This document shows positions 10,760 to 25,382 of a stretch of 64,000 nt of DNA, in pieces. Below the pieces are notes generated by a model. The model saw only the letters and a list, made by a program, of their open reading frames with translations. It searched no databases and was not told the DNA's origin. Where the stretch lies: contig NZ_CP141588.1 of the NCBI RefSeq assembly GCF_035594035.1, forward strand, positions 992,001-1,056,000. Direction: 5' to 3'. How positions within the stretch are numbered: position 1 is the stretch's first letter; each line of letters opens with the position of its first letter. Position numbers and translations under genes: made by a program. This stretch comes from Sphingomonas sp. LY54 (GTDB lineage Bacteria; Pseudomonadota; Alphaproteobacteria; Sphingomonadales; Sphingomonadaceae).

Positions 10760-10851
10760 GCCCCGTCCCCTAACCCGTGTGGTTATTTCATTTTCCTACA
10801 CAAGGGCCGGAATGGCAATAGCAAAGATGAATCGAGTCGCAGGAGAAGAGC

Positions 10852-11355
10852 ATGGCCGCACCCAAACGCAACCGCCTGCTGGCCGAACGCGCACTGCCCG
10901 AGGACGGCGAGCAGCGGGGCTCAAGCCCGGTTCGCACGCGCCGCGCCCGCTCGGTGACTGTGAACCTCGCCGAATCCCCGTTGGCCTGGCTGCGCGCACG
11001 CGGGCATATCGACGAGCGTCAATTTGCTGCCGGCGAGCATCTGCGCGTCGACTGGGAACGGTCGCAGCTGCCGCCGCGCGTCACGATGCGCTGGGATGCT
11101 CCGCCGCTCGCGCGCGGCCGTGGCGGGGCTCCGGGCCCCGCCGATCCGACCGAGGCGCAGCTTGCCGCCCGCCGCCGCTTTGAGGCGGCGACGGCGGCGG
11201 TCGGCCCGGGCCTCAGCGATGTTCTGTGGCGCATCGTCTGCGCGGGCGAGGGGATGCGCGATGCCGAGCGCGCGCTCGGCTGGCCGGCGCGCGCCGGCAA
11301 GCTCGTCCTCGGCTTGGCCCTCGATCGGCTGGCCGATTTTTACCGCCAGCGCTGA
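10852..11355 (+). CDS. DUF6456-type protein
   Basis: A 167-residue protein. The core ESPLAWLRARGHIDERQFAAGEHLRVDWE, an acidic-basic middle and a C-terminal helical segment (LSDVLWRIVCAGEGMRDAERAL, LALDRLADFY) match what I know of the alphaproteobacterial DUF6456 family, which is thought to be DNA-associated but has no defined function. The basic N-terminus (RTRRARSVTVNL) fits nucleic-acid contact. AGGAG lies just upstream of the ATG. It is divergently arranged with the XRE regulator. Confidence 0.75.
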   Translation: MAAPKRNRLLAERALPEDGEQRGSSPVRTRRARSVTVNLAESPLAWLRARGHIDERQFAAGEHLRVDWERSQLPPRVTMRWDAPPLARGRGGAPGPADPTEAQLAARRRFEAATAAVGPGLSDVLWRIVCAGEGMRDAERALGWPARAGKLVLGLALDRLADFYRQR

Positions 11356-11455
11356 GCGCCCTTTCGACCAGCGTGCCGAGCACTTCGACCAAAGGCTTTG
11401 GCGAGCTAGCCGACAAGGCGTACAAGCGATCCGAGCGGACGGCGGAAGGAAATGT

Positions 11456-12412
11456 ATGAGCATACGGTTGTTCTGCCTCCTCGCGTCCGCGGCGGCGCTC
11501 GTCGCGCCGCTTCATGCCCAGCCGGTGCCGAGACCCGATGACAGCGCCGCCGACGTGCTCGGCTATGCGCCCGACGACTCCCAAAGGATGACGGTCCCGG
11601 TCAGCATCGGCGGCAAGGGTCCGTACCGGTTCATCGTCGACACGGGTGCCGAGCGGACGGTCATCGCTCGCGAGCTTGCCCACGAGCTCCGCCTTGGCCC
11701 CGGCGATAGCACGATTCTGCACAGCATGACGGAGGTGCAGGAGACACCGACTGTCCTGATCCCCCGCTTGGAAGTGAGCAGGAAGACGGTGAGGGATATC
11801 CACGCCCCTGCTCTGGCGCGCGCGCACCTCGGCGCGGAAGGCATGCTCGGCGTGGACAGCCTGCAGGCTCAGCGGGTTCTGTTCGATTTCGTGCGCCAAG
11901 AGATGTCGATCTCGCCGTCGCGCGTGCGCGAGCCACGCTGGGACTCGGATACGATCGTGGTCACGGCGCGCAGTCGCTTCGGTCATCTGATCCTGGTCGA
12001 TGCGGCCGTCGACGGCGAGAAAGTGAATGTGATCCTTGATACCGGGTCGCAGGTCACGATCGGCAACAATGCCTTGCGTCGCAAGCTCGCCAAGAAGGGC
12101 AAGCTGCGCTTCACTGTCCCGATCAGCTTGCTCAGCGTCACTGGAGGCGTCACTCAGGCGGATTATACTGCGGTTAAGAAGCTCCGGCTGGGCGGCGTCG
12201 ACATCACCGACATGCCGATCGCCTTTGCCGAGGTGCACCCGTTCCGCAAATTGAAGCTCACCGACAAGCCGGCGCTGCTGCTCGGAATGGACGCCCTCAA
12301 ATTGTTCGAGCGCGTCTCGGTCGACTTCGCCACCCGCAAGGTACGCCTGCTGCCTCCCGGCACCGCGCAGGCGGATCAGCCGCGCCGTTATGCCGGGCGT
12401 CTCGTCCGCTGA
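11456..12412 (+). CDS. Periplasmic retropepsin-like aspartic protease
   Basis: A 318-residue protein with a signal peptide (MSIRLFCLLASAAALVAPLHA) and two clan-AA half domains, each with its catalytic triad: DTGAE at residues 62-66 and DTGSQ at 195-199. Each is followed by a hydrophobic-glycine flap/strand pattern (HLGAEGMLGVDSL; ALLLGMDAL). Having two active-site motifs in one chain suggests an intramolecular pepsin-like active site. Substrates are unknown. The ATG at 11456 is preceded by GGAAGG, and earlier in-frame residues would read through the DUF6456 gene region. Confidence 0.85.
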   Translation: MSIRLFCLLASAAALVAPLHAQPVPRPDDSAADVLGYAPDDSQRMTVPVSIGGKGPYRFIVDTGAERTVIARELAHELRLGPGDSTILHSMTEVQETPTVLIPRLEVSRKTVRDIHAPALARAHLGAEGMLGVDSLQAQRVLFDFVRQEMSISPSRVREPRWDSDTIVVTARSRFGHLILVDAAVDGEKVNVILDTGSQVTIGNNALRRKLAKKGKLRFTVPISLLSVTGGVTQADYTAVKKLRLGGVDITDMPIAFAEVHPFRKLKLTDKPALLLGMDALKLFERVSVDFATRKVRLLPPGTAQADQPRRYAGRLVR

Positions 12413-23462: not shown

Positions 23463-24590
<1,128 letters not shown>

Positions 24591-24629
24591 TCAGACAGCC
24601 CCCGGTTTAACCACAAAGAGGTCCAGAGT

Positions 24630-24781
24630 GAGTCAGCGCGACTCGGCGGTCAAGGACAGTGCGTTGAGCCGAGTCGTTAAGAATCTACCGCAGGTGAAGA
24701 GAACGAAACGAGTCTCCCCCACATCTGGCGTCCGCCCCGATTCTTGAGACTCAATATGAAGTGGTGTGGCGGGAAAGACTC
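24630..24781. promoter_or_regulatory. Cluster of eight GANTC sites in front of ccrM
   Basis: GANTC occurs at 24630, 24640, 24671, 24681, 24710, 24739, 24748 and 24777 (start of each five-base site), eight sites in 152 bases. With a GC content near 66 percent about half a site would be expected by chance. The cluster fills the gap between rnhB and ccrM, that is, the ccrM promoter region. A TTAACC half-site reminiscent of CtrA boxes is at 24607-24612. This is consistent with methylation-sensitive autoregulation. Confidence 0.8.
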
Positions 24782-25382
24782 ACAAGTCGAGCATATGCTG
24801 CTTCACCGGGGCGAAGCTGCGCCGGTGCAGCGGAGTGAGGCCGTGCAGGTCGAGCGCCGCGACATGCTCGGGCGTGCCATAGCCCTTGTTGGTCGCCCAG
24901 CCATAATGGGGATGTGTCTCGGCATATTCGGCCATCATCCGGTCGCGCGTGACCTTGGCGACGATCGAGGCAGCGGCGATCGAGCGGCTCTTGGCATCGC
25001 CGCCGACGATCGCCTTGGACGGATAGCGCCAGTCGGGGCAGCGATTGCCGTCGACCAGCACGGTGCCGGGCTCGATGCCGACGGCTTCGACGGCGCGGGT
25101 CATGGCGAGCATGGTCGCCCAGAAGATGTTGTAGCGATCGATTTCCTCGACCGTCGCGATGCCGACGGCGACGCGGGCGACTTGCTGCAGCTTGCCGTAG
25201 AGGCTCTCGCGCACCTCGAAGCAGAGCTTCTTCGAATCGTCGATGCCGCGTGGACAGCGCTTGCGGTCGAGCACCACCGCCGCCGCAACGACCGGCCCGG
25301 CCAGCGGCCCGCGCCCGGCCTCGTCGACGCCCACGACCGGCTCGGCGAACGGTTTTTCAATCTTGAAGCAGGGCGGCGGCAT
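24780..25382 (-). CDS. rnhB: Ribonuclease HII
   Basis: A 200-residue endonuclease that cuts the RNA strand of RNA-DNA hybrids and removes misincorporated ribonucleotides. The motif GVDEAGRGPLAG (catalytic Asp20/Glu21), the VDGN loop and AAASIVAKVTRDRMM are all typical. Start MPPPCFKIE at 25382; an alternative a few codons downstream cannot be excluded. It precedes ccrM on the minus strand. Confidence 0.95.
   Translation of the reverse strand: MPPPCFKIEKPFAEPVVGVDEAGRGPLAGPVVAAAVVLDRKRCPRGIDDSKKLCFEVRESLYGKLQQVARVAVGIATVEEIDRYNIFWATMLAMTRAVEAVGIEPGTVLVDGNRCPDWRYPSKAIVGGDAKSRSIAAASIVAKVTRDRMMAEYAETHPHYGWATNKGYGTPEHVAALDLHGLTPLHRRSFAPVKQHMLDL

Follow-up and report, generated by a model that had tools for sequence, protein, structure and literature searches.

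The way in which CcrM shuts itself off following a single round of methylation has long been a subject of study, mainly in Caulobacter. The Caulobacter ccrM gene carries a few GANTC sites, and the concept that ccrM is controlled through methylation of its own sites is established. Polymerase is recruited to methylated promoters by GcrA, a binding partner of sigma2 (PMC7403470), and Caulobacter start sites that carry a GANTC between -10 and -35 become active at 40-60 min (PMC4287350). In a comparison of 13 species, one per order, GcrA control of ccrM was judged likely in many of them, and ccrM was suggested as a core GcrA target; this predicted control was lost in Brevundimonas and its freshwater relatives, and no YGAKTCK preference was found in Brevundimonas (PMC7987155). 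In a Sphingomonas methylome, GANTC ranked first in frequency among the m6A motifs (PMC8067484).

We examined the ccrM leader of Sphingomonas sp. LY54 in a 64,000-nucleotide stretch of its genome (contig NZ_CP141588.1, positions 992,001 to 1,056,000; hereafter the window) and compared it with leaders from the same family and beyond. The ccrM product gave its best NCBIfam match to NF050803 (DnaMtaseCcrMCaul; 8e-186, 617 bits, under the model's curated cut-off of 830), and the LY54 genome contained a single full-length match in addition to two weak partial matches. The upstream neighbor, rnhB, is transcribed in the same direction and is separated from ccrM by a 189-bp gap. The preliminary description of this locus had reported eight GANTC sites within 152 bases between these two genes. 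All eight were recovered (starts at 24630, 24640, 24671, 24681, 24710, 24739, 24748 and 24777), the flanking genes had been named correctly, and the outermost site (24777-24781) overlaps the rnhB stop codon. The features of the region, in the order in which ccrM is approached from rnhB, are as follows.

24780..25382, minus strand: rnhB, ribonuclease HII (NCBIfam NF000594/NF000595, above cut-off).
24777..24781, minus strand: site A (GAGTC in the ccrM sense), the outermost site, with ACACC at A+14 to A+18.
24698..24785, minus strand: the whole A-D module as matched by model R1 (E value 1.8e-17 in the LY54 genome).
24712..24768, no strand assigned: inverted half-site pair around B and C, the right half being weak in LY54.
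24748..24752, minus strand: site B (TTGAGTC), inner end of the left half-site, 29 bp from A.
24739..24743, minus strand: extra, non-core GANTC; some other leaders have extras 8-11 bp after B.
24728..24732, minus strand: degenerate site C, with GACGC in place of the usual GACTC (by comparison with alignment A1).
24710..24714, minus strand: site D (GACTC), followed by the conserved GTTTCGTTC.
24681..24685, minus strand: extra GANTC (GATTC), 10 bp from the next.
24671..24675, minus strand: extra GANTC (GACTC).
24648..24653, minus strand: predicted -35 element TTGACC of a putative promoter.
24640..24644, minus strand: site E (GAGTC) in the promoter spacer; a GANTC lies at TTGAC+6 to +11 in 65/81 leaders.
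24630..24634, minus strand: site F (GACTC), whose last base is shared with the predicted -10.
24625..24630, minus strand: predicted -10 hexamer CACTCT (family consensus CAnnnT) of the same putative promoter.
23463..24590, minus strand: ccrM, adenine-specific DNA methyltransferase, with GANTC specificity assigned by homology.

The excess of sites had been put at more than ten-fold over about half a site expected by chance, and it proved to be bigger. A 400-kb sample of the 3.28-Mb LY54 genome contained 552 GANTC sites (1.38 per kb), that is, 0.21 expected per 152 bp, which places the eight sites ~38-fold above this background; the most crowded 152-bp window of the sample had five. The window as a whole contained 91 GANTC sites versus a mean of 326 in dinucleotide shuffles, indicating that the motif is avoided there, as the preliminary description had supposed for alphaproteobacterial genomes. 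In the 81 ccrM leaders that made up our first comparison (80 fetched loci and the window), GANTC was enriched 18.5-fold over the 400-kb sample, and seven control motifs of the same letters 0.65- to 3.9-fold. Chance or composition as the source of the cluster was ruled out by the background count and the control motifs. An origin of the sites as a by-product of a repeat, which had been raised as well, was excluded at the settings used, at which no direct repeat was found in the leader.

Other GANTC groupings were seen during these counts. The densest cluster of the 400-kb sample (L091:19256-19392; G000:C1 about 1139256-1139392) has five sites in 152 bp, includes another pair spaced by 10 bp, and sits at the gap between two ORFs, which we take to be imuA-like and M16-peptidase-like. 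Six sites were present in 177 bp (L097:11092-11268) within an ORF on the minus strand (10956-12185) that is presumably polysaccharide polymerase-like. Despite the avoidance of the motif, directly abutting pairs occurred in the window at 107-116 (GAGTCGAATC) and 10829-10838 (GAATCGAGTC).

The 80 fetched loci came from named genome records, mostly labeled with Sphingomonadales genera and some as Proteobacteria or uncultured. The ccrM leader was the densest 152-bp GANTC window of its locus in 79/80 cases, with 3 to 9 sites per such window in the 80 loci; thus, the excess that the preliminary description proposed to look for in orthologous leaders is present. By the pattern used, nine of the 81 leaders had no A element. 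The remaining 72 carried a mean of 6.1 sites (4.8 core and 1.3 extra; range 2-10), and eight sites, which had been considered unusually many, are therefore ordinary for this family. The order of the sites matters more than their number: A, B, D, E and F occupy family-wide positions, and the other three of the eight sites are extras. No single site is indispensable, because C is mutated in LY54, E and F are absent from 16/81 and 18/81 leaders, respectively, and A is lacking in some relatives. Element A was kept at ccrM in 22 of the 25 loci in which rnhB was >500 bp distant, which ties it to ccrM rather than to rnhB. For an independent set, 88 further family genomes yielded 80 leaders, and 73 of these were used after exclusion of 7 that overlapped the first set. 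Element A was present in 67 of these held-out leaders (6/73 had no A by the pattern used), and 72/73 had at least three GANTC sites within the last 315 bp.

One way to account for such crowding is a timer or sink, in which crowded sites would be slower to reach full methylation, ccrM would be among the last loci to switch, and exact positions would be of minor importance. The non-core sites agree with this idea, as they averaged 1.29 per leader (72 leaders) against ~0.25 expected from 1.48 GANTC per kb outside leaders. However, a timer has no need for fixed offsets, fixed center bases or helical spacing, and we give it a small chance.

Offsets and center bases are both sharply defined in the upstream part of the array. 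Among the 72 leaders with A, a GANTC occurred at B in 55 (A+28 to A+30, with 51/55 at A+29), site C was present as GACTC at A+47 to A+50 in 58, and D was present at A+67 to A+70 in 53. The center base was G in 72/72 leaders at A (held-out 67/67) and in 55/55 at B (held-out 54/55), and it was C in 58/58 at C (held-out 51/53) and in 50/53 at D (held-out 40/41). Because this base is free in GANTC and is fixed or nearly so at A-D, some reader besides CcrM seems to use these sites. About 60 bp separate the D region from TTGAC.

An inverted pair with the half-site consensus CCAC-N8-GAGTC has B and C at its inner ends, and both of its arms were present in 51 leaders. The gap between GAGTC and GACTC was 14-15 nt in 51 of the 52 first-set pairs closer than 20 nt, six further first-set pairs were spaced 24-25 nt, and the held-out leaders gave 14-15 nt in 46/50 pairs. 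We know of no regulator whose site matches the CCAC half-site. An inverted pair that lies between rnhB and ccrM could in principle form an RNA hairpin, either as an RNA element of the leader or as a terminator of rnhB. This reading has hardly any chance of being correct. The two arms were no more alike within a genome than after random pairing (identity 7.84 versus 7.86 of 16, sd 0.17, 51 leaders), which argues for a protein site on DNA and not for an RNA stem with covarying arms; no Rfam family was matched in the leader; and the sole inverted repeat found in the LY54 leader (24639-24647/24668-24676, 9-nt arms) is away from B-C. Element A also remains with ccrM where rnhB is distant (22/25 loci). 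The hairpin and the terminator were rejected on these grounds, namely the lack of covariation, the lack of an Rfam match and the linkage to ccrM.

A more economical explanation is that GcrA alone acts here, all six core sites being methylated GANTCs bound by GcrA and the upstream ones adding to recruitment of GcrA and polymerase, so that no further regulator would be required. A gcrA gene is present in the LY54 genome (PF07750 match, 1.8e-40), and to our knowledge the CCAC block is not a feature of GcrA sites. The strongly kept CCAC, 8 bp from GAGTC, lies outside the published GcrA motif, and the GcrA-preferred YGAKTCK flanks are not conserved at site B, where the base after GAGTC is mostly C or T; GcrA is thus unlikely to explain the upstream module. 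Multiple sites have been counted as raising the probability of GcrA control (PMC7987155), which would favor GcrA acting alone, and on balance we regard this explanation as unlikely. The leader of gcrA itself was considered as a second promoter of this kind and was ruled out by the absence of a GANTC cluster, the nearest GANTC (L168:1229) being ~270 bp upstream of the gene. The Pfam GcrA family was also matched above cut-off in a control genome, that of the archaeon Sulfolobus acidocaldarius, and this match may be a look-alike.

The module occurs a single time in the LY54 genome. A sequence-only model of A-D (R1, built from 42 sequences) detected the ccrM leader of LY54 as listed above, and the next matches elsewhere in the genome had E values of 0.16 and 0.24; on the opposite strand, the same leader was matched with 21 bits (5.8e-4). 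A corresponding model of the core promoter (R2) gave an E value of 5.8e-4 at ccrM, and its next matches had 0.6 and 1.05. Other copies of either module in the LY54 genome were searched for with these models and none was convincing (E values of at least 0.16 for R1 and at least 0.6 for R2). Among 60 genomes of the order, R1 was positive in 14/14 members of the same family (weakest E value 0.003), in each of which the best match lay within ~410 bp upstream of the ccrM match. Weak matches were found in 2 of the 46 genomes of other families, one at the ccrM leader and one not. Of 58 ccrM leaders belonging to other families, 3 (L107, L112 and L119) matched the inner part of the module.

The distance between the module and the promoter follows the DNA helix. 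In the 72 leaders with A, the A-to-TTGAC distance was 117-118 in 5, 125-129 in 53 and 136-141 in 14, with no values in between; the A-D module thus lies ~118, 128 or 139 bp from -35, in steps of one helical turn. These values were obtained with a loose TTGAC rule (the strict rule scores 69 leaders), and L023 and L010 each had two candidate TTGACs, of which the one falling within a class was used. On a CcrM tree (81 rows, 69 strict values), the long class required 5 changes and the short class 4, and the least numbers of changes forced by well-supported branches were 3 and 4, respectively. The majority at 128 reflects shared descent. What supports phasing are the shifted leaders (first set, 19; second set, 15), each of which was displaced by about a whole number of turns. 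Spacing classes of 116-119, 125-130 and 136-141, together with the other predictions, had been fixed before the held-out leaders were fetched. Of the 67 held-out leaders with A, 65 had a TTGAC that could be scored, and 64/65 fell in these classes under a TTGAC rule that was loosened after a first strict scoring, which had given 53/53; the single exception was 149, about two turns from 128. The held-out predictions were confirmed with few exceptions. Changes in leader length come as helical steps and not as codon steps, which bears on the reading of the leader as a hidden gene. In its position, conservation, rarity elsewhere and helical spacing, the array is directly observed.

Sites E and F lie inside a predicted sigma70 promoter. 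In LY54, this promoter reads TTGACC-N17-CACTCT and contains both sites, and the family pattern of the core is TTGAC-N14-GANTC-A-N3-T, with F touching -10 and the start codon further on. TTGAC was present in the expected stretch in 81/81 leaders. Site F was found in 63/81, in 61 of which it was exactly at TTGAC+19; together with E, which lies about one turn away, it makes up a pair. In the held-out set, scoring of F covered the 61 leaders with CTTGAC (12/73 had none), and a GANTC at +16 to +22 was at +19 in 49/51 and at +20 in 2/51. The pattern can be seen in alignment A2, which contains the LY54 leader and 48 other leaders, the rows having been picked for TTGAC with the pair or F. A scan of 464 kb of the LY54 genome on both strands gave TTGAC-N14-GANTC a single time, at ccrM; in the 80 loci, it was present in 60/80 leaders and had one occurrence outside the leaders, over 1.02 million strand-bases. 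The predicted ccrM promoter thus has sigma70-like -35 and -10 elements with GANTC between or overlapping them, and its GANTC sites are conserved beyond chance. The preliminary description proposed that the sites serve to regulate ccrM, and this is supported by their conserved positions, by the persistence of A at ccrM and by the two sites in the predicted promoter, where GcrA-type control would place them.

Sequences resembling binding sites of other cell-cycle regulators were also present in some leaders. A DnaA-box-like TGTGNATAA followed the core promoter in 14/81 leaders (L007, L014, L047, L048, L057, L061-L064, L068, L071 and L075-L077), and the LY54 window carries TGTGGTTAA at this place (24607-24615); such a sequence may put DnaA on the ccrM start. 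TTAAC, which is similar to a CtrA half-site, occurred between D and -35 in 42/72 leaders, twice in several of them. LY54 has one TTAAC there, flanked by its extra GANTC pair, and no N7-spaced pair of the CtrA box (TTAA-N7-TTAA) was seen by eye in its leader.

The core promoter is also found beyond the family. The 103 other genomes with ccrM supplied 60 leaders, of which 58 came from other families. An E+F-like pair of GANTC sites after TTGAC was present in 30/58 and missing in 28/58; E or F was present in 45/58, and both were missing in 13/58. Control motifs in the same 58 leaders gave 0 or 1 pairs and 1 to 11 single sites. At least one GANTC was found in the 360 bp before the match in 55/58 leaders, with a mean of 3.8 versus 1.05 in the 340 bp farther upstream. 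Because the pair occurs in about half of the leaders from other families, these sequences suggest an early origin of the GcrA-type ccrM promoter within Alphaproteobacteria, and the distribution of predicted GcrA control of ccrM among orders (PMC7987155) fits this suggestion. The CtrA-driven ccrM promoter of Caulobacter may then be derived.

We consider it probable that the cluster is a composite cis-regulatory region through which methylation by CcrM feeds back on ccrM transcription, consisting of a GcrA-type core and an upstream dimeric regulator. Inferred rather than observed are the promoter activity, the role of GcrA, the sensitivity to methylation, the existence of an upstream protein and whether the loop is positive or negative. 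The first part, which recurs across Alphaproteobacteria, would be a sigma70 promoter with E and F built into the spacer and the -10 edge, where RNA polymerase with GcrA may read the two sites according to their methylation state. The second part, family-wide, would be the upstream module of two inverted CCAC-N8-GAGTC half-sites with outer sites A and D. A putative dimeric regulator would bind the half-sites, its footprint including methylatable bases, and would reach the promoter complex from one constant side of the helix; a dimer making this contact is proposed because the CCAC block is present twice, in inverted orientation and at a constant helical phase. Replication would leave all sites hemimethylated, and their remethylation by CcrM would alter the output of its own promoter. 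By analogy with C. crescentus, we prefer a negative feedback in which full methylation would turn the ccrM promoter down (PMC2217572). A narrower proposal, that Sphingomonadaceae possess a dedicated, methylation-sensing dimeric regulator of ccrM which is not GcrA, CtrA or DnaA and acts from a fixed helix face on an array unique in the genome, is put forward tentatively, as somewhat short of an even chance.

Two-state inheritance is known for pap and agn43, and the same protein might instead shield the sites from CcrM, creating a hypomethylation island that is unmethylated in one growth state and possibly inherited in two states. The GANTC sites embedded in the half-sites are compatible with such shielding. 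MucR shields sites at some Caulobacter promoters, and local GANTC hypomethylation has been documented in Caulobacter (PMC5172544). However, a bistable off state would suit poorly a methylase that is needed in each cycle, and we give the island a slim chance. If the dedicated regulator tentatively proposed above exists, the methylase would read the completion of its own work via a multi-site epigenetic sensor. The family-wide architecture with its sharp geometry can be tested on sites, orientation and helical phase, and since the array predicts a further regulator, DNA of the A-D module could be used as bait for finding the protein.

Surveys of GANTC across orders (PMC2877005, PMC7987155, PMC8116508) found methylation sites at cell-cycle genes. 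In these, site numbers gave no derivable control (PMC2877005), the GcrA probability score ignores site location (PMC7987155), and sites were counted at ctrA (PMC8116508). The ordered array, the CCAC half-sites and the helical spacing were not described in the available portions of these three papers, and the array, half-sites and phasing were not described in those of PMC9836097, PMC3973325, PMC5172544 and PMC8067484. For the features of the array, the portions of PMC3667746 and PMC3708114 yielded nothing, and those of PMC11514494 and PMC3885167 nothing relevant. We found no published description of the array in this literature or through paper searches. As far as the literature search went, the ordered array, the half-sites and the phasing are new.

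In the Dam/Lrp (pap) and Dam/OxyR (agn43) systems, the regulator site contains methylation targets, as is proposed here for the ccrM module. However, methylase and motif differ, and phase variation is not expected at ccrM. GcrA-dependent sigma70 promoters are similar in having GANTC between -35 and -10, and the predicted ccrM promoter resembles the Caulobacter class that is activated at 40-60 min (PMC4287350), from which it differs by the E/F pair and by F being fixed at TTGAC+19. The C. crescentus ccrM promoter is like the one described here in that GANTC lies at the gene's own promoter and methylation feedback has been proposed, and unlike it in that CtrA is the activator there (PMC2217572). 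In contrast to Caulobacter, the array described here has six ordered sites in addition to extras, two of them in the promoter spacer, and an upstream module of inverted half-sites.
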